From IMG/VR virus record IMGVR_UViG_3300042197_000465, positions 1-21,984 of that record: 21,984 nt of DNA. The stretch is one strand, 5' to 3'. The notes below the pieces were generated by a model, which searched no databases, was not told where the DNA came from, and worked only from the letters and a program-made list of their open reading frames with translations. A program made the position numbers and the translations under genes. The DNA is from a virus. Shown piece by piece: positions 2,612-21,984 of this stretch. The first letter of the stretch is position 1; each line of letters begins with the position of its first letter.

Positions 2612-4750
2612 TTACATTCCACCCATTAGGGCGTTTCGGTTTTCGGATTCTGGCGCCAATTCATTGATTACGGGCTCCGTTACAAAGCGCGCCGTCGCGC
2701 CCTTGGCCAGACCATAGGATGCCGGATCGCGAATAATCTTTAGAACTTTGGTGCGCTCAAATGCTGGCAGCGTGTTCAGCAGTTGGTCGAAGCTTTCCGC
2801 TGTCTCAGCGGCCTTAGTCAACTGCTGCCAAGTCTTTCGAGCGATTTTCTTTTCAAGCGTGTCGATTCCCTTGTTCAACGCGGCGCCCGACGCGCTTAGA
2901 CCCCACGGCACCCGTATCTTTGCTAAATGATCTTTCAACAGTTCGCTGTACGCCTCGCGCCCGGCAGCGGCTTGCTCAGTCGCGCGCACGGCGCGGCCTG
3001 CTGTTTCACCGATTCTGCTGAGCGTCCCCATCGCGGCTTCGCTCATCTGCTTGACCAGATCATAGTTTCCGGGACCAAACACTTCTCTGACTTTTTCAGG
3101 GCTGCGGCCCGTGACTAGGTCAACAAATTCTTTCGGGTTGCGCTCAAACATTTCCAACGCTTCAGCCGCCAGTTGGCGTTGCTCGACAGCCTGACGACCT
3201 TTGGCATAAGCATCTAAGTATTCGGTGTACTTGGCGCTACCCGATGCTTTGTTAATTGCGTCATCAATCGCTGGTTTAAGTTCTGTTAAAAGACCGGCGG
3301 TCAGTTCTTTCTGCGCGGTCGGAGTGAGCTTTGCGCCCAGTAGATCCCGCACCGCGCTGTTTACAGAATTTCGTCGTATGGCATCAAGAGCAAATGCGTC
3401 GATGACGCCGCCTGCATCTGTCCATTTTCGGATGTCTTGAACAACACGCGGGATAACTTGCTCGATATCTGAATTGGCCGCATATCTTGGGTTGCGAAGC
3501 ACCCCCAACAGCTGTCGTTCAATTGCTTCTGTTTTCAATGGTTCCAGCCCGTGCGCTTTCATGCTGTCGAGCGCTCGCTGTGCAAATCGACCGGCCTCAC
3601 CAAACGCTAGCGAACCTTCCGCAGCAGATGTTGCAACTCTCTCAGCAGCGTCCTCAAGCTCCCCCATGTATGTGTAACGCCCCGGCACTCGCGGCTGACC
3701 TGCAACTTGACCTGGCATCAATTCACCTGTGTCGGGCGAGTACGGCGTTCGGGCCCGCTCGCCGATACGTTCACCGGCAGCCGTAAAGCGTCGCACATCT
3801 TGGACTTTTTGGCCGGCTGCCGCGCCCATCCGCGCCGCTTCAGCTTGCAAACGCTGCCTGATTACTTCGTCAGCATTGATACCCGCCAAAACAACATCGC
3901 GCTCAGGCAACAACTGCTGGTTAAGCGCATTGATGTCCGCTTCTCGTGCTGCCTGAGCAGCAACAGGCGTGCGTCCGCCTGCGAGTTCGGCTAGTTGATT
4001 GACCGCTTCCCGACGCTGCACCGGAGTAATACCAGCCTGTGGACCGGTGACCGGACCAAACCGTTCTGGCGCCCGTGCTGCTGCACGTTGCAACAGCGCT
4101 TGGGTGGTCGGTACATAGAGGTCGTCCGACCCTGCAAGCGCCTGTTGAGCAGTCGAGCCTGCGGGCGCAGAGCGAAGCGCCGCTTGCGCGGCGTCCAAAT
4201 TGCTCCCGAGCGCTTCTCGAGCAAGCGCCGCCGCACGCTGTTGCGGAATCTGTCGAGCATCCGCAAGGCGCCCAAGCCCTGCGCTGACAGCTTGACCCAC
4301 TACGCGACCGCCCGCCTCCATTGCGCCGCCTGCTGCAATGTCAAACGTCGCTTGCTGGAGCGCCTCATCCGGCGTTAGCGCAGGTTGCGTGCCAAGGTAA
4401 GTGTCCGCCAGTCGAAGAATCTGACGAGCGCCAGCGTATCCTGCGCCTGCGCCAGCCAGCGTTCCAAGACCCGGCGCGCCGACAGTCCCCAGCGCCGCGC
4501 CGCCAATGCCGCCCAGCATCTCAAGAGTTGGGCCGGCTAGTTGCCGCGTGGCGACAAGCCCCTTGTACAGGTTCGGATACTCTTGCGCCCATGCAGGCGG
4601 CTGCGCGCGGGGGCCAGGCAATGCGTCAGGCGAAGCAAAAACGGGCTGCGCGCTTGACGGGTCAAAGCTTGGCTGTTCGACCGGACGAGCTGTGCTGAGG
4701 TCAAACCCCGACTGTTCGACCGGACGGGCTGTGCTTAGATCAAATGCCAT
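2612..4750 (-). CDS. Large probable internal virion / DNA-ejection protein (712 aa)
   Basis: The N-terminus contains a 13-residue repeat: FDLSTARPVEQ at 3-13 and 16-26, then the degenerate FDPSSAQPV at 29-37. A Pro-rich linker follows, then a Gly/Ala-rich hydrophobic stretch (about 76-112) that could insert in or cross a membrane. The rest is long, Ala/Glu/Arg-rich and helical, without an obvious enzymatic motif; I saw no lytic-transglycosylase signature. The third position after two other helical virion-type genes matches the P22 gp7/gp20/gp16 ejection-protein block, so a role in forming the DNA-translocation conduit is inferred. ATG 4750 shares one base with the upstream stop (TAATG), with GAGGTG a few bases before it. 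It could instead be another internal head protein. Confidence 0.7.
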   Translation of the reverse strand: MAFDLSTARPVEQSGFDLSTARPVEQPSFDPSSAQPVFASPDALPGPRAQPPAWAQEYPNLYKGLVATRQLAGPTLEMLGGIGGAALGTVGAPGLGTLAGAGAGYAGARQILRLADTYLGTQPALTPDEALQQATFDIAAGGAMEAGGRVVGQAVSAGLGRLADARQIPQQRAAALAREALGSNLDAAQAALRSAPAGSTAQQALAGSDDLYVPTTQALLQRAAARAPERFGPVTGPQAGITPVQRREAVNQLAELAGGRTPVAAQAAREADINALNQQLLPERDVVLAGINADEVIRQRLQAEAARMGAAAGQKVQDVRRFTAAGERIGERARTPYSPDTGELMPGQVAGQPRVPGRYTYMGELEDAAERVATSAAEGSLAFGEAGRFAQRALDSMKAHGLEPLKTEAIERQLLGVLRNPRYAANSDIEQVIPRVVQDIRKWTDAGGVIDAFALDAIRRNSVNSAVRDLLGAKLTPTAQKELTAGLLTELKPAIDDAINKASGSAKYTEYLDAYAKGRQAVEQRQLAAEALEMFERNPKEFVDLVTGRSPEKVREVFGPGNYDLVKQMSEAAMGTLSRIGETAGRAVRATEQAAAGREAYSELLKDHLAKIRVPWGLSASGAALNKGIDTLEKKIARKTWQQLTKAAETAESFDQLLNTLPAFERTKVLKIIRDPASYGLAKGATARFVTEPVINELAPESENRNALMGGM
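4673..4744 (-). repeat. 39-bp-period direct repeat encoding FDLSTARPVEQ copies
   Basis: Two 33-bp near-identical copies at 4673-4705 and 4712-4744 (39-bp period, three visible mismatches) lie at the 5' end of the 712-aa gene and encode the tandem FDLSTARPVEQ units. A third, degenerate unit is visible only at protein level. Confidence 0.85.
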
Positions 4751-7624: not shown

Positions 7625-7846
7625 TTAAGCCTTCAAGGCTTTGAGTTCATCCAGCGTCGTGCAGGCGTCTGCAAGGGCGGGCAGGTCACGCAGGCGCTGC
7701 TTCTCAGCGACGACCGCAGCGTTGTCGGCGCCCGTCTCCAGATTACGCTGGAACTGTACATCAAGCGCCGCCAGAAGGGGAGCCCGCTCGGCACGCAGCC
7801 GATCTTTCGTGATGGTGCGGGCCTTCTCGAAGTTGATGGTGATCAT
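7625..7846 (-). CDS. Conserved small phage protein, 73 aa, function unknown
   Basis: MITINFEKARTITKDRLRAE opens a charged helical protein that continues with ERAPLLAALDVQFQRNLETG and ends in an L-P-A-L-x-D-A-x-T-T-L-D-E-L-K-A-L segment. I recognise this general pattern (IDFEKAR-x-I-x-K-x-x-L-R-x-x-R-x-P-x-L-x-x-L-D) as a common small protein next to phage fibre genes; it resembles tail-assembly or chaperone-type helical proteins, but no function is established to my knowledge. ATG 7846 overlaps the upstream TGA as ATGA; a longer start at 7861 would add five residues and break that coupling. The gene lies between another small protein and the first ejection protein. Confidence 0.75.
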   Translation of the reverse strand: MITINFEKARTITKDRLRAERAPLLAALDVQFQRNLETGADNAAVVAEKQRLRDLPALADACTTLDELKALKA

Positions 7847-8040
7847 TCGGTGTACTCCCAAGCGTCTCTGAACGTCCGGTCAGTCGGTACGTCCGAGGCG
7901 TCGATGATCTGGTGGGGCTTGCCTTCAGGCACGACCCGAGCCACAAGCTCTTCGATTGTGTGCTCGGCTAGGTACTCAGGCGTCGGGATGACGATCGCCA
8001 CGATGCCGTTGTCTTGCGGGTAGATAATTCGTTTGTTCAT
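7843..8040 (-). CDS. Conserved small phage protein, 65 aa, function unknown
   Basis: MNKRIIYPQDNGIVAIVIPT begins a short beta-then-helix protein with TIEELVARVVPEGKPHQIID and a terminal DRTFRDAWEY. The pattern 'VPEGKPyxIvD...ipxDRTFRxAWe' recurs in small phage proteins encoded beside tail fibres. The role is unknown; a fibre-assembly helper is a guess from position. ATG 8040 has AGGTG close upstream, immediately after the fibre stop (8044-8046), and its TGA overlaps the next gene's ATG. Confidence 0.75.
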   Translation of the reverse strand: MNKRIIYPQDNGIVAIVIPTPEYLAEHTIEELVARVVPEGKPHQIIDASDVPTDRTFRDAWEYTE

Positions 8041-14693: not shown

Positions 14694-15896
14694 TTAGCCC
14701 CACATCCGCACAGCCATCTGCGGACGGATCACCGAGTAGCCGTAGAGCACGTCAACCCGGCAAGGCATACGGTCGTTGTTGATGTCGTACTGACGCACGA
14801 CACGCAGACTGATGCCATTGTGGACTTGACGGCTGGCCATGTCGACACCCTGCGGCATCACCAGATCGGCCGTCGCGAACGTGATGGCGTCGCGATGATA
14901 GATCAGGTTCTGCGGGTACTGGGTGCTGGCGCTTCCCAAGAAAGTCACAACTGCCGAGGCTTGCGGGAACGAATCCACGGTCGCCAGAGCTTGGCTGGCG
15001 GTGTAGATCGCCGGGCTCACGCTCACCGTGTAGGCGCCGCCCGATGCGGTGGCGTCAGCGGTGGCGACGAACTGCTGGAGCGAGCCAGTCGACTCACGGG
15101 TCTGGGGGTTGACCGAATAGACGCTCGCGATGGTGAACACGTCACCCTTCTTGATCGTCTGCGAACCCGTTCCGGTGATGGCGATGCTGGTGGCGCCTTG
15201 GCTAGACACGGTCGTGGTGACAGTGTGGGCGCCAGTGCGCGTGCCGGTCGTATGCTGCTTGATCGACTGGCTCATGTTGAGCTCTTCGTAGCCCAGAATG
15301 CCTTCGCCCATCAGACCAGACTTGAACTGCTTGCTGATCGTCGACACCGGGTTGAACAAGCCCTTCATGCCCTCAACCAGCGCCGCGTTGGCCGCCGGGT
15401 TGACGGTCGCGTAGCGAGGCGACATGACCGCAGCCGCTTCGTTCAGCTTCTGTTGAGCTTGCAACAGCACCAAGCTGGTACCAGGAGTGGTGCCAGGCGT
15501 GCCAACCGACTGGAAGATGTTTTGGAACGAGTTCGCCACGTCCGCGTCGATACTGGAGGCCAACTGGCTGATCCGGGGCTTGAGAACCCGCTCAGCGAAG
15601 TCGTCCAACTGCATCGTCAGTTCGGCGGTGGTGAAGTTGACGCCGATGTGCTTCTGGCTGGCAACGGTCAGCGTGGTGTACTGCTCGTTGTCGTCCTGCA
15701 CTTGCAGCGCCGCACCATCAGTCACCAGAGCGCGGTCCGGCAGACGGATACGGAGAGTTGAACCAATCTTCGCACCTTCTTGGGCGAAGCTCGAGTCGTA
15801 CTGCCGATTTACAGTACGGGTGATCACAAGGTTGTTCTCGAGAATTTCGAGAATTTTCCTCGTGATCATGTCAATCGTTAAGAGACTGTTGCTCAC
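14694..15896 (-). CDS. Major capsid protein, P22 coat family (400 aa)
   Basis: The N-terminus (SNSLLTIDMITRKILEILEN, then VNRQYDSSFAQEGAKIGSTL and RIRLP) is typical of P22-type coat proteins with an HK97 fold. A central beta-rich insertion (about 240-320, starting ITGTGSQTIKKGDVFTIASV) matches the I-domain region of P22 gp5. The end (PQGVDMASRQVHNGISLRVV ... CRVDVLYGYSVIRPQMAVRM) is also family-like. P22 gp5 is 430 aa. I chose GTG 15896 because AGGTGA lies 5-6 nt upstream and relatives begin M-x-N-x-L-L-T; the alternative GTG 15905 adds three residues and has no ribosome binding site. The gene is separated from its scaffold by an antisense HNH gene. Confidence 0.92.
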   Translation of the reverse strand: MSNSLLTIDMITRKILEILENNLVITRTVNRQYDSSFAQEGAKIGSTLRIRLPDRALVTDGAALQVQDDNEQYTTLTVASQKHIGVNFTTAELTMQLDDFAERVLKPRISQLASSIDADVANSFQNIFQSVGTPGTTPGTSLVLLQAQQKLNEAAAVMSPRYATVNPAANAALVEGMKGLFNPVSTISKQFKSGLMGEGILGYEELNMSQSIKQHTTGTRTGAHTVTTTVSSQGATSIAITGTGSQTIKKGDVFTIASVYSVNPQTRESTGSLQQFVATADATASGGAYTVSVSPAIYTASQALATVDSFPQASAVVTFLGSASTQYPQNLIYHRDAITFATADLVMPQGVDMASRQVHNGISLRVVRQYDINNDRMPCRVDVLYGYSVIRPQMAVRMWG

Positions 15897-15900
15897 GGTT

Positions 15901-15930
15901 TTCACCTATTAAAGAAAGTTGTGATAAGAT
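15901..15930 (+). promoter_or_regulatory. Possible weak promoter for the HNH gene
   Basis: TTCACC (15901-15906) and TGATAAGAT (TG extension plus TAAGAT at 15925-15930) are spaced 18 bp and point toward the + strand HNH gene. Each box matches the sigma70 consensus at 4 of 6 positions, so this is a weak candidate only. It overlaps the coat translation-initiation region on the other strand. Confidence 0.25.
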
Positions 15931-15961: not shown

Positions 15962-16591
15962 ATGAACAGCGTCTTTATGAACGGAATCGAATTTCGATTG
16001 TTTGATCACTTGTACGCCGTATCTCGATGCGGAAAAGTTCTCAGAGCGAACACCCTTTACACGCCAAATGTGCGGCCCGACGGCTACTTGTCTGCCGGGC
16101 GACGCCGATTGGTCCACCGTATGGTTGCAAAATGCTGGCTGCCCACATTTAGCCCGGAATTGCAAGTGCACCACATTAATGGCAATCCTGCGGACAATCG
16201 AGCCGAAAACCTTGAATGCCTCACCCAACGAGATCACATGGTTATGCGCCATGCCGACCATTTGGAAAGATTTAGTCGGTACGAACGCACGCCCGAAGTG
16301 CGGGAAAAGTTGCGGCAGGCACGGCTTGGCAGCGTGACATCTGAAGAAACCAAAGCCAAACAGCGAGCCGCTTTGCTTGGGCGCAAGCGTCCGTACTTTA
16401 AGCGTGCGGGACACAGCGAAGAGTCGAAACGGCAACGCAGCCTCAATCACCCTCGCAACACGGGTTGCAGGGTGCTTGGAGTTGAGTACCGCTCCTTCGC
16501 AGAAGCCGCTAAAGCTACAGGCATTCACAGGTTTACGATTCGCAAAAGGTGTCTTTCTGAGAACTTTCCTGACTACCAGGTCATTGACTGA
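15962..16591 (+). CDS. Free-standing HNH homing endonuclease with NUMOD domains (209 aa), antisense to the late operon
   Basis: Domains in order: a NUMOD4-like N-terminus (IEFRLFDHLYAVSRCGKVLR, 9-28), an HNH_3 nuclease core with H52 and VHHINGNPADNRAENLECLT (69-88; H70, H71, N79 and N83 are likely metal or DNA contacts), a basic NUMOD3-like region (about 107-165, with EVREKLRQARLG, SEETKAKQRAALLGRK and SEESKRQRSLN), and a C-terminal NUMOD1/helix-turn-helix (VLGVEYRSFAEAAKATGIHR). This is the architecture of phage homing endonucleases. ATG 15962 is fixed by AAAGGAGG (15948-15955). It is the only + strand gene in the late region, and its stop overlaps the end of the scaffold gene by 11 bp. No intron is evident: both flanking genes look complete. 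Confidence 0.92.
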   Translation: MNSVFMNGIEFRLFDHLYAVSRCGKVLRANTLYTPNVRPDGYLSAGRRRLVHRMVAKCWLPTFSPELQVHHINGNPADNRAENLECLTQRDHMVMRHADHLERFSRYERTPEVREKLRQARLGSVTSEETKAKQRAALLGRKRPYFKRAGHSEESKRQRSLNHPRNTGCRVLGVEYRSFAEAAKATGIHRFTIRKRCLSENFPDYQVID

Positions 16592-17357
16592 GTCGAGCTT
16601 GCATTTTCCTGATCTGACGCTGCCGTTCGGCTTCAATCCAGTCGCTGACCGACATTTCTTTGACAGACCGGGGATCGGTCGTATCGAACTTCGGTGCGGT
16701 CGAACGGTTTGAAGACACAGGCGCGATCGGATCAGGCGCTTTGGTTGATTTGCGGACAACGGGCGGATTGTCGGCCAGTTTGGCTTCGATCTTCCCGATC
16801 TCTTTGGCCTGCAAGAACGGCGGCAGTTGAGCGATCCGGTTGGCTTCTTTCGGGTTGGCACCGAGGTGATACGCGATGTCCGGCCCCATGTCAGACGCTT
16901 GGATCGTTTGCGCCATCACGGTCGTAATACGCAGACTCGGGTTGTAGACGACTTGTTCAAAGTCTTCGTACTTGTCCCGGGCCGCTTCTTCACGCTCCGC
17001 ATAACCTTCCAGCAGTTGAGACTGTTGGCGCTCAAGATCGCGTTGCTGGATCAGTTCTTGAGCCTTCTTCTCAGCCAGCGCTTGCGCGTAGGCGTCGACG
17101 GACTCGAACTGGTCAGCAGGCGGAACATCTTGAGGCACCGACGGAGTCTGGGGCTGCTGGCGCGTTTGGCGCTCCCATCGTCGCTGCTCTTTCGCAAGCC
17201 TCTTGCGTACAATTTCGTCCAGCTCTTCTTGAGTGAACGTCTTGGCCGGCGTATCGGGTTCGGCAGCCGCTTGGGTAGGCTGCTCAGGCAGTTGGTCCGA
17301 GGCCGTCTCGGGGGCTGCCGGCGCGGGGGTTGAATCCGCTGTGAGATTGTTTTCCAT
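16581..17357 (-). CDS. Scaffolding protein (258 aa)
   Basis: An acidic Pro/Ala/Thr-rich N-terminus (about 1-38) precedes KTFTQEELDEIVRKRLAKEQ and RRWERQ (39-64), the typical head of phage scaffold proteins. Gln/Glu-rich helices follow, and the end is basic (SVSDWIEAERQRQIRKMQAR), where P22-type scaffolds bind the coat. P22 gp8 is 303 aa. The gene lies between portal-side genes and coat, as expected, apart from the inserted HNH gene. ATG 17357 is preferred over GTG 17390: the latter falls inside the leader hairpin and lacks a ribosome binding site. A weak GAGTGG precedes the ATG. Its expression is probably boosted by the promoter at 17405-17432. Confidence 0.88.
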   Translation of the reverse strand: MENNLTADSTPAPAAPETASDQLPEQPTQAAAEPDTPAKTFTQEELDEIVRKRLAKEQRRWERQTRQQPQTPSVPQDVPPADQFESVDAYAQALAEKKAQELIQQRDLERQQSQLLEGYAEREEAARDKYEDFEQVVYNPSLRITTVMAQTIQASDMGPDIAYHLGANPKEANRIAQLPPFLQAKEIGKIEAKLADNPPVVRKSTKAPDPIAPVSSNRSTAPKFDTTDPRSVKEMSVSDWIEAERQRQIRKMQARLSQ

Positions 17358-17376
17358 TTTCCACTCTGGCGAGCAC

Positions 17377-17393
17377 CTGGTGAACCGCACCAG
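17377..17393 (-). promoter_or_regulatory. 5'-leader stem-loop of the scaffold-coat transcript
   Basis: CTGGTG-CGGTT-CACCAG is a perfect 6-bp stem with a 5-nt loop. It lies about 5 nt inside the start predicted from the promoter at 17405-17432 and 19 nt before the scaffold ATG. A stem so close to the 5' end could protect the mRNA from decay, as known for ompA-type leaders; this role is inferred. Confidence 0.5.
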
Positions 17394-17404
17394 TACGGTG
17401 TAGA

Positions 17405-17432
17405 TTTATACAGTATTTCGGTCGGCTGTCAA
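17405..17432 (-). promoter_or_regulatory. Near-consensus sigma70 promoter before scaffold and coat
   Basis: On the - strand TTGACA (17432-17427, 6 of 6) and TATAAA (17410-17405, 5 of 6) are separated by 16 bp in a locally AT-rich spot. Transcription should start near 17398, about 40 nt before the scaffold ATG. The TGA stop of the upstream 50-aa gene lies inside the -35 box. This is the best promoter I see in the window. Confidence 0.75.
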
Positions 17433-17581
17433 GCAGATTCTGCGGGCGGCTGCACCTGCTGCTCGACCTGCGCTCGCAACTTCTGCCAGATCGCAACGGA
17501 CACTTCCAGCGGTAGCTTGCCCAGCCCCATCGCAATGATGTTGGCTTCTTCGACCGTGATCTTGATCGTGAACTCTTGCAT
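17429..17581 (-). CDS. Small conserved phage protein, 50 aa, function unknown
   Basis: MQEFTIKITVEEANIIAMGL, then GKLPLEVSVAIWQKLRAQVE and a short Gln/Pro-rich tail. The sequence reads as a beta strand followed by helices; 'FxIxIxxeEaNiIxxALgxLPxevsxxlixkLxxQ' is a pattern I associate with short phage proteins in many genomes, with no assigned function. ATG 17581 shares a base with the preceding stop (TGATG), so it is translated by coupling. Its last codons overlap the -35 box of the scaffold promoter. Confidence 0.8.
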   Translation of the reverse strand: MQEFTIKITVEEANIIAMGLGKLPLEVSVAIWQKLRAQVEQQVQPPAESA

Positions 17582-17889: not shown

Positions 17890-19125
17890 TTAGTCCTCAA
17901 TAAACTCGTGAACAGCGTCAAGACCGAAATGGTCATTGACGAACTTAAGCAGACGCTCAACATCAATCTTCAGCACCTTACCCGTGGGCGTGTGCTTGGA
18001 ACGGAAGATCCATTCGTTGGTTTCGGCATCGTGCGGTGAGAACAGCGTAGCGTTACCCGCAGCGTCCATGACGTAGGCTTCACCAGCCGAGGAATAGATC
18101 GAGATGCCGTTAGCAAGAGTGCCGACAGGGGCTGTGCCGTCGAAGATGTCAAGGTGGTTGGTGCCGACTGTGGTAGCTCGCTCTGCACTCCCGCCAACTT
18201 TGACGTTGCTGTTTGTTCCTTCCACAAACAACGCATGGGTGTTGGTGTCAGACTCGACACGGAAGTCGTAGTCGTTGCCGGGGTCGTTGAAGACTGCTTC
18301 GCCTGCCGCAAGTTGAAAACGTTCGACTGGAGTGGTTGTCGCAGCGGGAGTGGTGTTAAAAACAATTCGACCCGGTGAACTTGTGGAACTCCATGTGCCA
18401 GCGCCAATAAACTGAATTGATGCACCATCCGCAGTCAACGTTGGAATTTCACCAGTTCCTGCAATTGTCCCAAGTGCAGTTGATGACCCAATTGAAGATG
18501 CAACCCTCTCAATAGAAAAAGTTTGCCCAGTTGTTCCGCTAACTTGTAGCTTGTACCCCGGCGAACTCGTCCCGATGCCCACGTTGCCCGCAAAGTAATT
18601 CGCCGCTGTCCCGCTGGCGTAGATGTTCCACTTGTCCGTGCCGCTGGAGACAAGAGAGGTGATGCCGTAGTTGTTTGTGCCGGAAGTCAGATCATTGATG
18701 TAAATCCCATGTTGATTGGTAGCAGAAGAACCTGCGCCGAGCGAAAGATTTGATACTCGCACACCATACGCATTTCCGACTGTAAACGATGTTGCCTCTG
18801 TGCTGTTAACGACATAGAGTCCATACACTCCATTAGTTGCTGCAGAAGTTGCAGTAATCTGAGATTGAACCCCAACCTGTGATGTTCCCGTCAAAGCAGT
18901 ATTTCGTGCGTAAACAGAAATTCCTGCGCTACCAGCACCCCCCACCCCCATATACCCGTTCACCCTCACCGTGTCGGTAGAGGCATCGCCAAGGATCGTG
19001 TTGCCGGTAACGTCCAGATTCGCTGTAATCTGGATGTCCCTCGGACAGACGTATGTATCGCCGGACTGAGCCGCTTGGATCTGCGGGACGGCTGTATTCA
19101 ACAAAAGCAGTTCGTATGCGGCCAC
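17890..19125 (-). CDS. Fibre-like structural protein encoded between portal and scaffold (411 aa)
   Basis: Residues 1-50 form a short arm (MAAYELLLLNTAVPQIQAAQ) followed by ITANLDVTGNTILGDASTDT. The middle is Gly/Ser/Thr-rich beta repeats with GNVGIGTSSPGYKLQVSGTT, the classic phage fibre-shaft signature, and FNDPGNDYDFRVESDTNTHA, closely related to FNEAGADKDFRVEGDG of the main fibre. The C-terminus (SPHDAETNEWIFRSKHTPTG, then KVLKIDVERLLKFVNDHFGL) is different: a short charged region and a terminal helix that could cap or chaperone the trimer. The GTG start at 19125 has AAGGAG 8 nt upstream. It may be a head fibre or a second tail fibre. The function is inferred from motifs. Confidence 0.8.
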   Translation of the reverse strand: MAAYELLLLNTAVPQIQAAQSGDTYVCPRDIQITANLDVTGNTILGDASTDTVRVNGYMGVGGAGSAGISVYARNTALTGTSQVGVQSQITATSAATNGVYGLYVVNSTEATSFTVGNAYGVRVSNLSLGAGSSATNQHGIYINDLTSGTNNYGITSLVSSGTDKWNIYASGTAANYFAGNVGIGTSSPGYKLQVSGTTGQTFSIERVASSIGSSTALGTIAGTGEIPTLTADGASIQFIGAGTWSSTSSPGRIVFNTTPAATTTPVERFQLAAGEAVFNDPGNDYDFRVESDTNTHALFVEGTNSNVKVGGSAERATTVGTNHLDIFDGTAPVGTLANGISIYSSAGEAYVMDAAGNATLFSPHDAETNEWIFRSKHTPTGKVLKIDVERLLKFVNDHFGLDAVHEFIED

Positions 19126-19137
19126 AGCACGCTCTCC

Positions 19138-19365
19138 TTAAATTGGGTTGTATGACGTGCCGTTACTGGTCAGCACCGTCTCGACAACGTAAAAGCTTGT
19201 TCCAGAGCTGTTGAGCACTTCTTCGTCAACAGTGTAGGGTGTTGCATTGCTCGTCAGCACGATCCACGGCGGGCCAGGGTTCGGCCCGGCGAAGTCAGTC
19301 GCCAGCGTAATGACCGTGCCCAGCCCGAGCGACAGGCCGTTGCGGGTGGCGACACCGAAGCTCAT
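19138..19365 (-). CDS. Small beta-rich virion-type protein, 75 aa
   Basis: MSFGVATRNGLSLGLGTVIT opens a Gly/Thr/Ser/Val-rich protein with a repeated ending: VLTSNATPYTVDEEVL, then VLTSNGTSYNP, two 'VLTSNxTxY' copies 37 residues apart. ATG 19365 overlaps the upstream TGA as ATGA, so I prefer it to the in-frame codon at 19431, which would add 22 Arg/His-rich residues and overlap the upstream gene heavily. No family is recognised. The neighbours suggest a small structural or fibre-associated protein. Confidence 0.65.
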   Translation of the reverse strand: MSFGVATRNGLSLGLGTVITLATDFAGPNPGPPWIVLTSNATPYTVDEEVLNSSGTSFYVVETVLTSNGTSYNPI

Positions 19366-19664
19366 CGGATATTGATGGGTTTGGCGTACACGGTGCCGGC
19401 TGACCCAATCTGGATCGCGCTGACGCGCCACGGTGCGCCGGTGCCTTGCGGCACGATGAACGGGATGGGCGTGTTGGCAGGGATTGGAGTGTCGCTGCTG
19501 GTTGCCGTTACACCCTCACCGACTGAGACGTAAGCCGCTGTGGTTGACCAGATCACCACGCCCTGCGGGCCAGCCGGCCAGGTGCTGGTGCTGCCAGCCG
19601 TGCCGGTGTACGCAGCGTTTGCCGCAGCGAACTGGGCATCGGTCATAGGGTTCAAAAGTTCCAT
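19362..19664 (-). CDS. Small beta-rich virion-type protein, 100 aa
   Basis: MELLNPMTDAQFAAANAAYT, then STWPAGPQGVVIWSTTAAYV and a beta-rich remainder including IPFIVPQGTGAPWRVSAIQI and GTVYAKPINIR. No charged clusters, no Cys and no membrane segment are seen. The composition (Ala/Thr/Gly/Pro/Ile) is that of small virion beta domains. ATG 19664 has AAGGA 7 nt upstream, overlapping the TAA of the preceding gene. It is coupled by ATGA to the 75-aa gene, so the two may act together. I do not recognise a specific family; head decoration or a fibre-attachment role is possible. Confidence 0.7.
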   Translation of the reverse strand: MELLNPMTDAQFAAANAAYTGTAGSTSTWPAGPQGVVIWSTTAAYVSVGEGVTATSSDTPIPANTPIPFIVPQGTGAPWRVSAIQIGSAGTVYAKPINIR

Positions 19665-19673
19665 AATGCGTCC

Positions 19674-20036
19674 TTACGCGAGGAATTTGAGTTTGTACAA
19701 GGTGGAATAGTACAACGCCAGGATTTCGTCAATGATGTTCTGGAGCGGTGTGCAGTCCTTGTCGACCACCTTGTAGCGGGTGTTTTCGATCTCTTTGACA
19801 TGATCCTCAAGGAACTCGACCACGTTGTTTGTTTTCTTGGCCGACTGCAACGCAATCGGCCCGATCAGTCCGTACTTGCCTTGGTAGGCTTCTGCAAAGT
19901 CGTCCGCCAAGTCAATGATGCCCGTGTAGAACTTGTTCAGCGCTTTGTGTTTGGCGTACGACCTTGTATTGAGGTGTACAGAGTGCGTGACATCTCGCGC
20001 CAGAAACAGTTGGCCAATGAAGACTTCGCAGGTCAT
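19674..20036 (-). CDS. DUF5856-like helical phage protein (120 aa)
   Basis: An all-helical protein: FIGQLFLARDVTHSVHLNTR, SYAKHKALNKFYTGIIDLAD, DFAEAYQGKYGLIGP, then a second helical pair ending in LQNIIDEILALYYSTLYKLK. The histidines and acidic residues in 'H-S-x-H-L-x-T-x-S-Y-A-x-H-K-A-L-x-x-F-Y-x-G-I-x-D-L-x-D' give the look of a ferritin or Dps-like helical bundle; I associate this pattern with phage proteins labelled DUF5856, from memory and unverified. The function is unknown; metal binding or protection of packaged DNA is conceivable but not shown. ATG 20036 overlaps the portal TGA as ATGA, so it is made with the portal protein. Confidence 0.72.
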   Translation of the reverse strand: MTCEVFIGQLFLARDVTHSVHLNTRSYAKHKALNKFYTGIIDLADDFAEAYQGKYGLIGPIALQSAKKTNNVVEFLEDHVKEIENTRYKVVDKDCTPLQNIIDEILALYYSTLYKLKFLA

Positions 20037-21984
20037 TGCGGCATCCCTTGTTCAGGCATCATTGGCTGTTCTGGGGTCAGTTGCTGCGGCATGGCCGCTA
20101 GATTGCCCAAATCCATCACGTCGCGCAAGGTCTGAACGACCACTTCCTGCACCTGTTCAGGTGACATGGCCTGCGACAGCGCTTGGACCCGACGTGTTTC
20201 AGCCTCGTAGGCTTTGATGTCGTTGGCCTGTTGCTTGATGGCCAGATCCTGCGCTTCCATTGACTGGTTGACGTTCTGAAGCAGGCCCATCATCTGTTGC
20301 AACTGCGCGTTCAGCGCTTCGATCTGCTGGTTGGCCGCCTGGATCGCCGGATCGTCTTCGTCTTGCAGCAGTTTGGGGTCGATCATCTTTTTGAGGCGCG
20401 CTGCAAGCTCTTGGGCGCCTGGCCAATCCATGTTTTTGACGAACAGGTCGCCTGCGGCCATCCACAGTTGCGGGTTGCCTTGCAGGATCTGGCCCATCGC
20501 GTCCATCGACTCTTGGCGTTTGGTCATGTAGCTGGGGCCAGTCGTGACGCGGACGTCGTACTTGCCGACGTTGGGGTTGTAGATCTTCTGGATGACGATG
20601 CCCTGCTGGTCCACGATCTTTGTGACCGCCTGCTGCTGGCTGGGGTCAATGACCGCTTGGTCCACCTCGCCATCAATGCCAATGATGCGAGCAATCCGAC
20701 GGGTGTCGTAAATCTTGGGTACCAAGTCAATGATCTGACGCGTGATGTAACGGATGGCTCGAGCCAGGTTGTCGACGTAATGAAACGTGCCGGTGTTGCT
20801 TTGCTGCTGGCGGGCGAGGATGGCCCGGCCAGAACGCTCGTTTGAAGTTGCGCCAAGGCTGGGGTCGTACTGGCCAGTCGTTGCTTTGAGGTCATCCGAC
20901 GCCCCCATTTTGGCCTGTATGAGCCCCGTTTGAGCCATCGGAGGGGTAGACCGCTGCGGCAGCGGCAGAGGCACGCCTTGACCGTCTGTGGCGTCTGGAT
21001 TGACCTCGAGATACGGCCAGTTGTTGACGTTAGCCGTCTTCCACTGGTGCTCGTAGCCTTCAAACTGTCCGCCGTAGCCAATAAACGGCGCTTTGGGGGC
21101 CAGCGCCAGCATTTCTGCTTCTTGGCTGACCCAGTAGTTGTACAGTCGCTGGGCGTCCTTGGCGTTACGCACCAGGCCCGAAATCTGCACGTCGCCGTTG
21201 ACTTCGTACTCGTTTCCGACCACTCGGACGACCGGAATGTATTGGCCGGGCCAGTCACGCTCTTCCAACACCTCAAAACCGTTGGTTTTGATCCATTTCA
21301 CCTGTTTTCGGTCGACTTTGCGGCTTCTGATCGGCTGCAAGCCCATCTGACGCATCTGTTTGTCTTGCGGATCGTCCGAAAAGAACGTCTGGCCGTTTGG
21401 GTACAAGTTGAGCGTGGCTTCTTTGTGCTCGTAGTAGAAGTACTCCGCAATCCGGATGGTCAGTTCCGCGACCCACTGCGTGAGGTCTGCGTCGCCTATG
21501 CCTTGCGCCATGATCGACGTCACGGGCGAGGCTTTCGGGTACATCCGGTGGTAGTCTTCTTTAGTGATTTCTTCAGTAATGAAGCACCACTGGGCGTCTG
21601 CCCCGCAAGGGTCTTGGATCATCGGGTCCATGTAGACTGAAAACGGGTTTCTGACCCGTCCAATCTTGATGTCCTGATCAAAACTCGTGTCGTCGCAATA
21701 CTCGGTCAAAACGCGTATGTAGCCCTCACCGTGGACGACTTGGTTCTCGCAAGCCGTATCGTAAGCGACGTCAGCGTCTGAAATGTACTCGATGTGCCGA
21801 ACAATGCCGTCCAGCACTTCCGCCATTTCAATGTCAGCGTTGTCGTCGACCGGGATAACCTTGCCGCTGGGTCGGTTCTGCCGTTGGTCGTTGGTGACCT
21901 GACGGACGTGTTGAGGCAGTTTGTTGACGGTCAGGCAGGGGCGGGCGTTGATCGTCTGCCCTTGGGCGCTGCCTCGAGTCTTCA
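20033..21984 (-). CDS. Portal protein, P22 family (N-terminus beyond the right edge)
   Basis: The frame is open from the stop at 20033 to the edge of the window, about 650 residues, so the ATG at 21826 is internal, not the start. The visible beginning (NKLPQHVRQVTNDQRQNRPS, then VIPVDDNADIEMAEVLDGIV) and DVAYDTACENQVVHGEGYIR match the opening of P22-type portals (gp1, 725 aa). The middle contains the wing and stem regions, with NERSGRAILARQQQSNTGTF typical of the family. The C-terminal 110 residues are Gln/Ala/Glu-rich and coiled-coil-like (ANQQIEALNAQLQQMMGLLQ), corresponding to the barrel of long P22 portals. It forms the dodecameric DNA channel at one capsid vertex. Terminase genes would be expected beyond the edge. 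Confidence 0.94.
   Translation of the reverse strand, partial: KTRGSAQGQTINARPCLTVNKLPQHVRQVTNDQRQNRPSGKVIPVDDNADIEMAEVLDGIVRHIEYISDADVAYDTACENQVVHGEGYIRVLTEYCDDTSFDQDIKIGRVRNPFSVYMDPMIQDPCGADAQWCFITEEITKEDYHRMYPKASPVTSIMAQGIGDADLTQWVAELTIRIAEYFYYEHKEATLNLYPNGQTFFSDDPQDKQMRQMGLQPIRSRKVDRKQVKWIKTNGFEVLEERDWPGQYIPVVRVVGNEYEVNGDVQISGLVRNAKDAQRLYNYWVSQEAEMLALAPKAPFIGYGGQFEGYEHQWKTANVNNWPYLEVNPDATDGQGVPLPLPQRSTPPMAQTGLIQAKMGASDDLKATTGQYDPSLGATSNERSGRAILARQQQSNTGTFHYVDNLARAIRYITRQIIDLVPKIYDTRRIARIIGIDGEVDQAVIDPSQQQAVTKIVDQQGIVIQKIYNPNVGKYDVRVTTGPSYMTKRQESMDAMGQILQGNPQLWMAAGDLFVKNMDWPGAQELAARLKKMIDPKLLQDEDDPAIQAANQQIEALNAQLQQMMGLLQNVNQSMEAQDLAIKQQANDIKAYEAETRRVQALSQAMSPEQVQEVVVQTLRDVMDLGNLAAMPQQLTPEQPMMPEQGMPQ

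Follow-up and report, generated by a model that had tools for sequence, protein, structure and literature searches.

The analysed stretch of DNA, hereafter the window, is the 21,984-nt record of an uncultivated virus (IMG/VR type). It carries a P22-like late region on its minus strand (Table 1). The scaffold/coat module is of the P22 type, with a coat protein that matches PF11651, a scaffolding protein that matches phrog_8865 as gp8 does, and a portal protein that matches phrog_156. The scaffold and coat genes are separated by 675 nt in the window. This space is filled by an antisense HNH endonuclease gene, the 3' end of which overlaps that of the scaffold gene. The HNH_3 endonuclease of the window is probably a homing enzyme. 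In 135 of the 141 relatives measured, the coat gene begins no more than 40 nt after the scaffold gene. The junction holds an insert of 568-776 nt in six of the 141 (L014, L043, L051, L066, L108 and L133), and the site is possibly a hot spot for insertions. The slot between the portal and scaffold genes differs from that of P22 and looks variable among relatives; in the window it contains a tail-fibre-like gene and small genes (DUF5856, DUF7936) at 17890-19125 and 19362-20036 on the minus strand.

Table 1. Late genes of the window and the elements of the scaffold leader, in the order of transcription of the minus strand
Feature	Position	Strand	Assignment or basis
Portal gene	20033-21826	-	phrog_156
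50-aa ORF upstream of the leader	17429-17581	-	TGA stop at 17431-17429, within the -35 box
-35 box, TTGACA	17427-17432	-	Sequence; same box and position in L082, L120, L008, L138 and others
-10 box, TATAAA	17405-17410	-	16-nt spacer to the -35 box; predicted start about 17398-17399
Predicted H-type pseudoknot, 22 nt, CCG-UA-CUGGUG-CGG-UU-CACCAG	17377-17398	-	Covariation, changes on the tree, distant phages
S1, CCG with CGG	17396-17398 with 17385-17387	-	Part of the pseudoknot
L1, UA	17394-17395	-	Part of the pseudoknot
S2, CUGGUG with CACCAG	17388-17393 with 17377-17382	-	Part of the pseudoknot
L3, UU	17383-17384	-	Part of the pseudoknot
Second hairpin, GCUC-GCCA-GAGU, between the knot and the start codon	17363-17374	-	Weak in the window: 4 bp, one G-U
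Scaffolding protein gene, downstream of the leader	16581-17357	-	phrog_8865, E 1e-32; ATG at 17357-17355
HNH endonuclease gene, between scaffold and coat	15965-16591	+	HNH_3, E 2.7e-11
Major coat protein gene	14694-15905	-	P22_CoatProtein PF11651, E 1.6e-38; phrog_283

An earlier note on this DNA had described a TTGACA/TATAAA pair with 16-bp spacing before the scaffold gene, and had placed the stop codon of a 50-aa gene inside the -35 box. Both descriptions were exact. The two boxes match the consensus at 11 of 12 positions, and the site escaped the stock promoter scanner only through that program's demand for T as the last base of the -10 box. The note had also recorded a 6-bp stem-loop between the promoter and the scaffold ATG. 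The stem is exact, with the loop CGGTT, but it forms only half of a predicted H-type pseudoknot: it corresponds to S2, and the CGG of its loop can pair with a CCG that immediately precedes the stem to give S1. MFE folding of the window leader was unremarkable (z 0.24); ordinary MFE calculations cannot show pseudoknots. The SD of the window is poor.

About 150 related scaffold gene leaders were lined up by anchored parsing and MAFFT, and 84 distinct leaders formed alignment A1. The S1 pairing, between the stem loop and the three bases just 5' of the stem, was present in nearly all of the approximately 150 leaders, and its versions in relatives included CCT/AGG, CTG/CAG, ACG/CGT, ATG/CAT, TTG/CAA, GCG/CGC and CCC/GGG. 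The general form of the knot has an S1 of 3 bp, an L1 that is mostly UA, an S2 of 6 bp (sometimes 5), no L2 and an L3 of about 2 nt. An H-type pseudoknot needs 1-2 nt to cross a deep groove of 5-6 bp, and the loops are long enough to span the grooves, with L1 mostly 2 nt over a 6-bp S2 and 1 nt in many 5-bp versions; L1 of the distant 5-bp versions is 3 nt. One variant clade (leaders L432 and L110) has a much longer L3 (CCCTACGGGCGGGGTATAAACACCCGG), possibly reflecting a rearranged knot.

Both crossing stems covaried strongly in 87 related leaders. Standard pairs occupied 86.3% of the pair cells in A1, and 71.9 ± 0.8% after the columns were shuffled. The covariation score was 0.415, against 0.179 ± 0.010 for shuffled columns and at most 0.106 with slid partners. 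Both sides changed in nine of the ten pairs, comprising three S1 pairs and six S2 pairs. The fourth S1 pair considered (columns 5-20) had zero covariation and was hence left out of the model. When mapped on the scaffold-protein tree, the paired state changed at least 26 times in S1 and at least 58 times in S2 (at least 84 in total), counts that include a few one-sided changes to G-U. A C.A mismatch inside S2 was kept in one subfamily (CTGGCC/GACCAG). The only invariant unpaired positions in A1 were the A of L1 and a G located 3' of S2. A hairpin of at least 4 bp lay between the knot and the start codon in 57 of 70 unique tails, compared with 26% of shuffles, and an SD of at least 4 nt, where present, overlapped the 3' arm of this second hairpin in 39 of 45 cases. 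In near relatives, the knot was located 13-23 nt 5' of the scaffold start codon. Taken together, these comparisons establish the RNA structure to the extent that comparative evidence is able to.

To survey its distribution, two DNA-only patterns of the knot, blind to proteins, were scanned over IMG/VR. Among the matches listed, in which some contigs were counted twice, the knot was directly 5' of a scaffold homologue in 254 of 261 occurrences. The other seven of these listed matches comprised three contig ends with scaffold-like starts, one site with no sequence left and three real exceptions. At L263 (3446-3467) and L179 (minus strand), a knot identical to the scaffold type lies between a tailspike gene and a lysis cassette, directly before a small lipoprotein-family gene (phrog_462), and in L263 endolysin and holin genes come next. 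At L198 (2043-2064), the knot and the SD hairpin precede a gene for a small, possibly membrane, protein of 86 aa without a known family. A covariance model gave a single copy per genome for 37 of 40 records and a single copy in the window, and there was at most one strong match per genome, before the scaffold gene. A weaker candidate in the window at 7844-7892 (E 2.3) was rejected, being within coding sequence and having an imperfect S2. In a genome-wide pseudoknot scan of 30 genomes, matches equalled those of the reversed control, except for the scaffold sites and a second site in genome G007.

The knot extends well beyond the near relatives. A fully Watson-Crick version occupies the same place in named phages with scaffolds only 30-39% identical. 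The distant carriers include Thalassomonas phage BA3, Shewanella phage X14, several Vibrio phages, VvAW1 and four uncultured Manatee Spring phages; Pseudomonas phage PAE2, found through its coat protein (41% identical), has the knot as well. Nine distinct fully paired versions were found in distant named phages, where 1.1% was expected per shuffled leader. By the same test, the knot was absent from P22, Rhodoferax phage P26218, EBPR podovirus 1, PBR31, phiAX1 and CV-1-33. Related contigs were also present among MAGs of Burkholderiales, Rhodoferax and other Proteobacteria, although phage contigs may be placed in the wrong bin. The knot was visible by eye in most of the MAG contigs inspected, in L432 only as the longer-loop variant.

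Promoters were examined in the same leaders. A sigma-70-type promoter was defined by -35 and -10 hexamers 15-19 nt apart and by position-specific enrichment in relatives, and both features were found. A strong promoter of this type stood just 5' of the knot in 47.5% of 261 unique upstream regions, compared with 3.7% of shuffles, and one of at least the window's quality in 7.3%, compared with 0.02%. After clustering, a promoter was present in 39 of 98 upstream clusters (representatives), against 6% when shuffled, and a control position gave 5 of 98. Its presence varied with the space available: 8 of 58 leaders had one where the upstream ORF ended within 8 nt of the knot, and 88 of 124 where the gap was at least 25 nt. 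Promoter-like pairs were also seen 6-9 nt 5' of the knot in BA3 (GTGACA-17-TATTAT), X14 and others. The distance from the end of the -10 box to S1 had a mode of 7 nt among 124 strong promoters (63 of them), and was spread over 3-8 nt after de-duplication into 98 clusters. The clustering weakened the case for taking a sharp 7-nt spacing as proof of a 5' cap. With this spacing, the predicted 5' end of the transcript would be no more than a few bases from S1.

Judged from these leaders, the promoter and the predicted knot are a common pair, in which the promoter is optional and the knot is the constant part. The earlier note had staked its reading, an internal promoter joined to a 5' structure, in part on conservation of the boxes and the stem in relatives. 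Both are indeed kept in many relatives and in distant phages, but the conserved unit is the knot, which persists without the promoter. As to the polymerase, a search without a positive control did not find a T7-type RNA polymerase in 26 relatives, so host polymerase probably transcribes all late genes. The idea that host polymerase might serve this promoter early in infection is unsupported. Terminator-like inverted repeats with T runs lie between the upstream gene and the scaffold gene in L524 (PAE2) and L515 (PBR31), suggesting that scaffold and coat can be a separate transcription unit.

A scan with a third DNA pattern revealed a second pseudoknot class (CCGTACCAGTTCGG..AACTGG). A small phrog_6228 gene was downstream in 88 of 98 unique occurrences of this pattern; the loci of the class include L563, L607, L645, L323, L053 (3835) and about 80 more. 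Approximately half of the sites were shortly upstream of scaffold and coat genes. These knots mostly followed right after a stop codon and lay 26-55 nt from the start codon, mostly without SD sequestration. A hairpin of at least 5 bp came after the knot in 61 of 77 cases, compared with 13% of shuffles, and its stem covaried. The hairpin loop was mostly (N)GGAT, reminiscent of CsrA/RsmA sites; such GGA loops were clear only in the phrog_6228 class and were not seen in the window. In genome G007, both classes occurred in tandem. The G that is invariant 3' of S2 in A1 was not invariant here, and the UA of L1 was the main unpaired sequence conserved across the classes, with few others.

These distributions do not support the proposal that the element is dedicated to scaffold and coat and raises coat supply. 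It stands only before the scaffold gene, with the coat gene 675 nt further on past the HNH gene, and other copies precede phrog_6228 and lysis genes. From the comparisons above, what is conserved is an RNA leader that belongs to late genes, mainly to the scaffold gene. A search of Rfam (4227 families) at the gathering score gave no match in the window, at 8 near loci or at 14 further loci. The best sub-threshold match, obtained at a permissive E-value, scored 14.3 bits against a cut-off of 60 and was dismissed as chance. Our literature search did not find a paper on such a scaffold-leader element. We regard the pseudoknot family as new to the curated libraries checked, and this RNA leader is very probably real and previously undescribed.

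The knot is kept where the promoter is missing, implying that its job is independent of the transcript start site. Together with this independence, the ATG-proximal position, the near-fixed distance and the SD hairpin point to a post-transcriptional role at translation initiation. Our leading reading, held at a little short of even confidence, is that the leader acts post-transcriptionally and sets scaffold translation initiation. In this reading, the site is an RNA leader that is linked to a promoter and acts in cis on the scaffold gene. The knot would border the ribosome footprint on its upstream side and, together with the SD hairpin, constitute a translational operator that determines how frequently ribosomes start on the scaffold mRNA. 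A trans-acting protein would switch the state of the operator. P22 scaffold reportedly lowers its own synthesis, which makes free scaffolding protein the first candidate for this regulator, although the identity of the repressor is the weakest step of the proposal. By acting on scaffold instead of coat, such control would fix the scaffold:coat ratio; this ratio is important because the P22-type scaffold is reused.

Several observations sit uneasily with this operator. P22, the source of the described autoregulation, has no knot, and in the window itself the second hairpin is weak and the SD poor. The occurrence of the same knot before phrog_6228 and lysis genes is a poor fit to an operator for scaffold only, and since few unpaired bases are conserved across the classes, sequence-specific protein contact is not evident. 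The copies before other genes and the scarcity of conserved unpaired bases both fit a structural barrier that protects mRNA. The knot might shield late mRNA segments from decay that depends on the 5' end (RppH, RNase E entry or scanning), acting as a 5' end cap behind a promoter or, within an operon, protecting the downstream segment after processing. Precedents for 5'-terminal stem-loops exist in E. coli (Emory 1992 and Bouvet 1992, cited in PMC3997798). At the 7-nt mode (63 of 124), about one unpaired base would be left at the 5' end, and the free drift of sequence under a constant structure, like the copies before non-scaffold genes, would be expected of such a shield. However, with the spacing spread over 3-8 nt after clustering, some promoters would start inside S1, and many copies stand right after a stop codon without a nearby 5' end. 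Moreover, a plain hairpin would serve the purpose, and a shield does not explain why the distance to the ATG is conserved or why there is an SD hairpin. We consider protection possible, though not probable, and rank it as the main rival to translational control, the most likely explanation.

Other explanations fared worse against the comparative data. An RNA acting on RNA polymerase, by antitermination or pause control like the put RNA of HK022, could aid passage through the late operon; the operons are long, promoters are near the knot in many relatives, and intrinsic-terminator-like repeats lie upstream of scaffold in PAE2 and PBR31. But PBR31 has its terminator without a knot, promoterless copies lie deep in the operon immediately 5' of a start codon, and put elements, which lie close to promoters, are paired hairpins that contain no pseudoknot; we hold this role to be improbable. 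A small-molecule riboswitch is more doubtful still. Compact H-type pseudoknots are known riboswitch folds (the preQ1 family) and the position before the RBS hairpin is conserved, yet there is hardly any conserved unpaired core, as nearly all positions change in compensated pairs; there is no Rfam riboswitch match, and the downstream genes encode virion and lysis functions, not metabolism. S2 is also an inverted repeat near a promoter, as would be expected if overlapping repeats formed a DNA operator for a transcription factor. This we judge very improbable, because the arms change yet stay complementary, S1 and S2 cross, G-U pairs are present, and the element has one fixed orientation relative to the gene and is retained where the promoter is absent. 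Although the window leader folded by itself has an ordinary MFE, chance or coding constraint without a functional RNA has a negligible likelihood: the region is non-coding, all shuffled and slid controls were exceeded, and the same fold recurred in the nine distant leaders at the low expectation noted above.

If translational control is the correct reading, the knot may be a portable module. In P22-coat phages of Beta- and Gammaproteobacteria, unassembled scaffold, or another late protein, would throttle scaffold synthesis through the knot, and copies would have been recruited to phrog_6228 and lysis genes under the same signal. We offer this extension as a speculation that is rather unlikely in its full form.

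How one operon yields the proper scaffold:coat ratio is an old question, best known from P22, and no RNA site is known to have been assigned to the described autoregulation of P22 scaffold. The phages with the leader resemble P22 around gene 8: the phrog_8865 profile matches both scaffolds, the order is portal, scaffold, coat, and the coat is of the P22 type. They differ in that portal and scaffold are only 13 nt apart in P22 and the lederbergviruses. P22 does contain a knot-like sequence 21 nt before gene 8 (CGGC-A-GTGT-A-GCCG-AG-ACAC, L399 about 3851-3872), and none of 200 shuffles was as good. This candidate was rejected since IME10 has a broken version of it and Proteus phage V3 has none. 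In T7, the internal promoters phi9 and phi10 precede scaffold and coat. The window likewise has an internal promoter before scaffold and coat, but T7 uses its own RNA polymerase and promoters, whereas the promoter here is sigma-70-type. The stabilising 5'-terminal stem-loops of ompA and papA and the T7 gene 10 leader are comparable in having a structure near the 5' end behind a strong promoter; the present element differs from them as a pseudoknot that is kept also at internal, promoterless positions. A pseudoknot in the leader of a self-regulating protein is described for the E. coli rpsO (S15) operator (PMC3014915); rpsO is a cellular ribosomal-protein gene, unlike a phage scaffold gene.

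A close parallel is T4 gene 32, where a phage pseudoknot operator mediates translational control of gp32, and which a 2010 review considered perhaps the only viral example in translation autoregulation (PMC3014915, PMC535899). As in gene 32 of T4, T2 and RB69, the scaffold leaders would place a small H-type pseudoknot with coaxial stems upstream of the RBS of a protein whose proportion is sensitive. The scaffold gene differs in that it does not encode an SSB, belongs to other phages and has an SD hairpin. The A+U-rich UUAAA/UAAA repeats that lie between knot and start codon in gene 32 are not present, and the tails instead form hairpins with the SD. The scaffold-leader family is also much wider and has accumulated compensated changes in its pairs by the dozen. 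Because a defined 22-nt RNA is now in view, along with its natural variants and their compensatory changes, the scaffold:coat question becomes directly testable, and the carriers include cultivable phages (Shewanella X14, Thalassomonas BA3, Vibrio isolates and PAE2). Together with T4 gene 32, these leaders would bring the phage classes of pseudoknot leader to two, and they would be by far the more widespread in sequence data.
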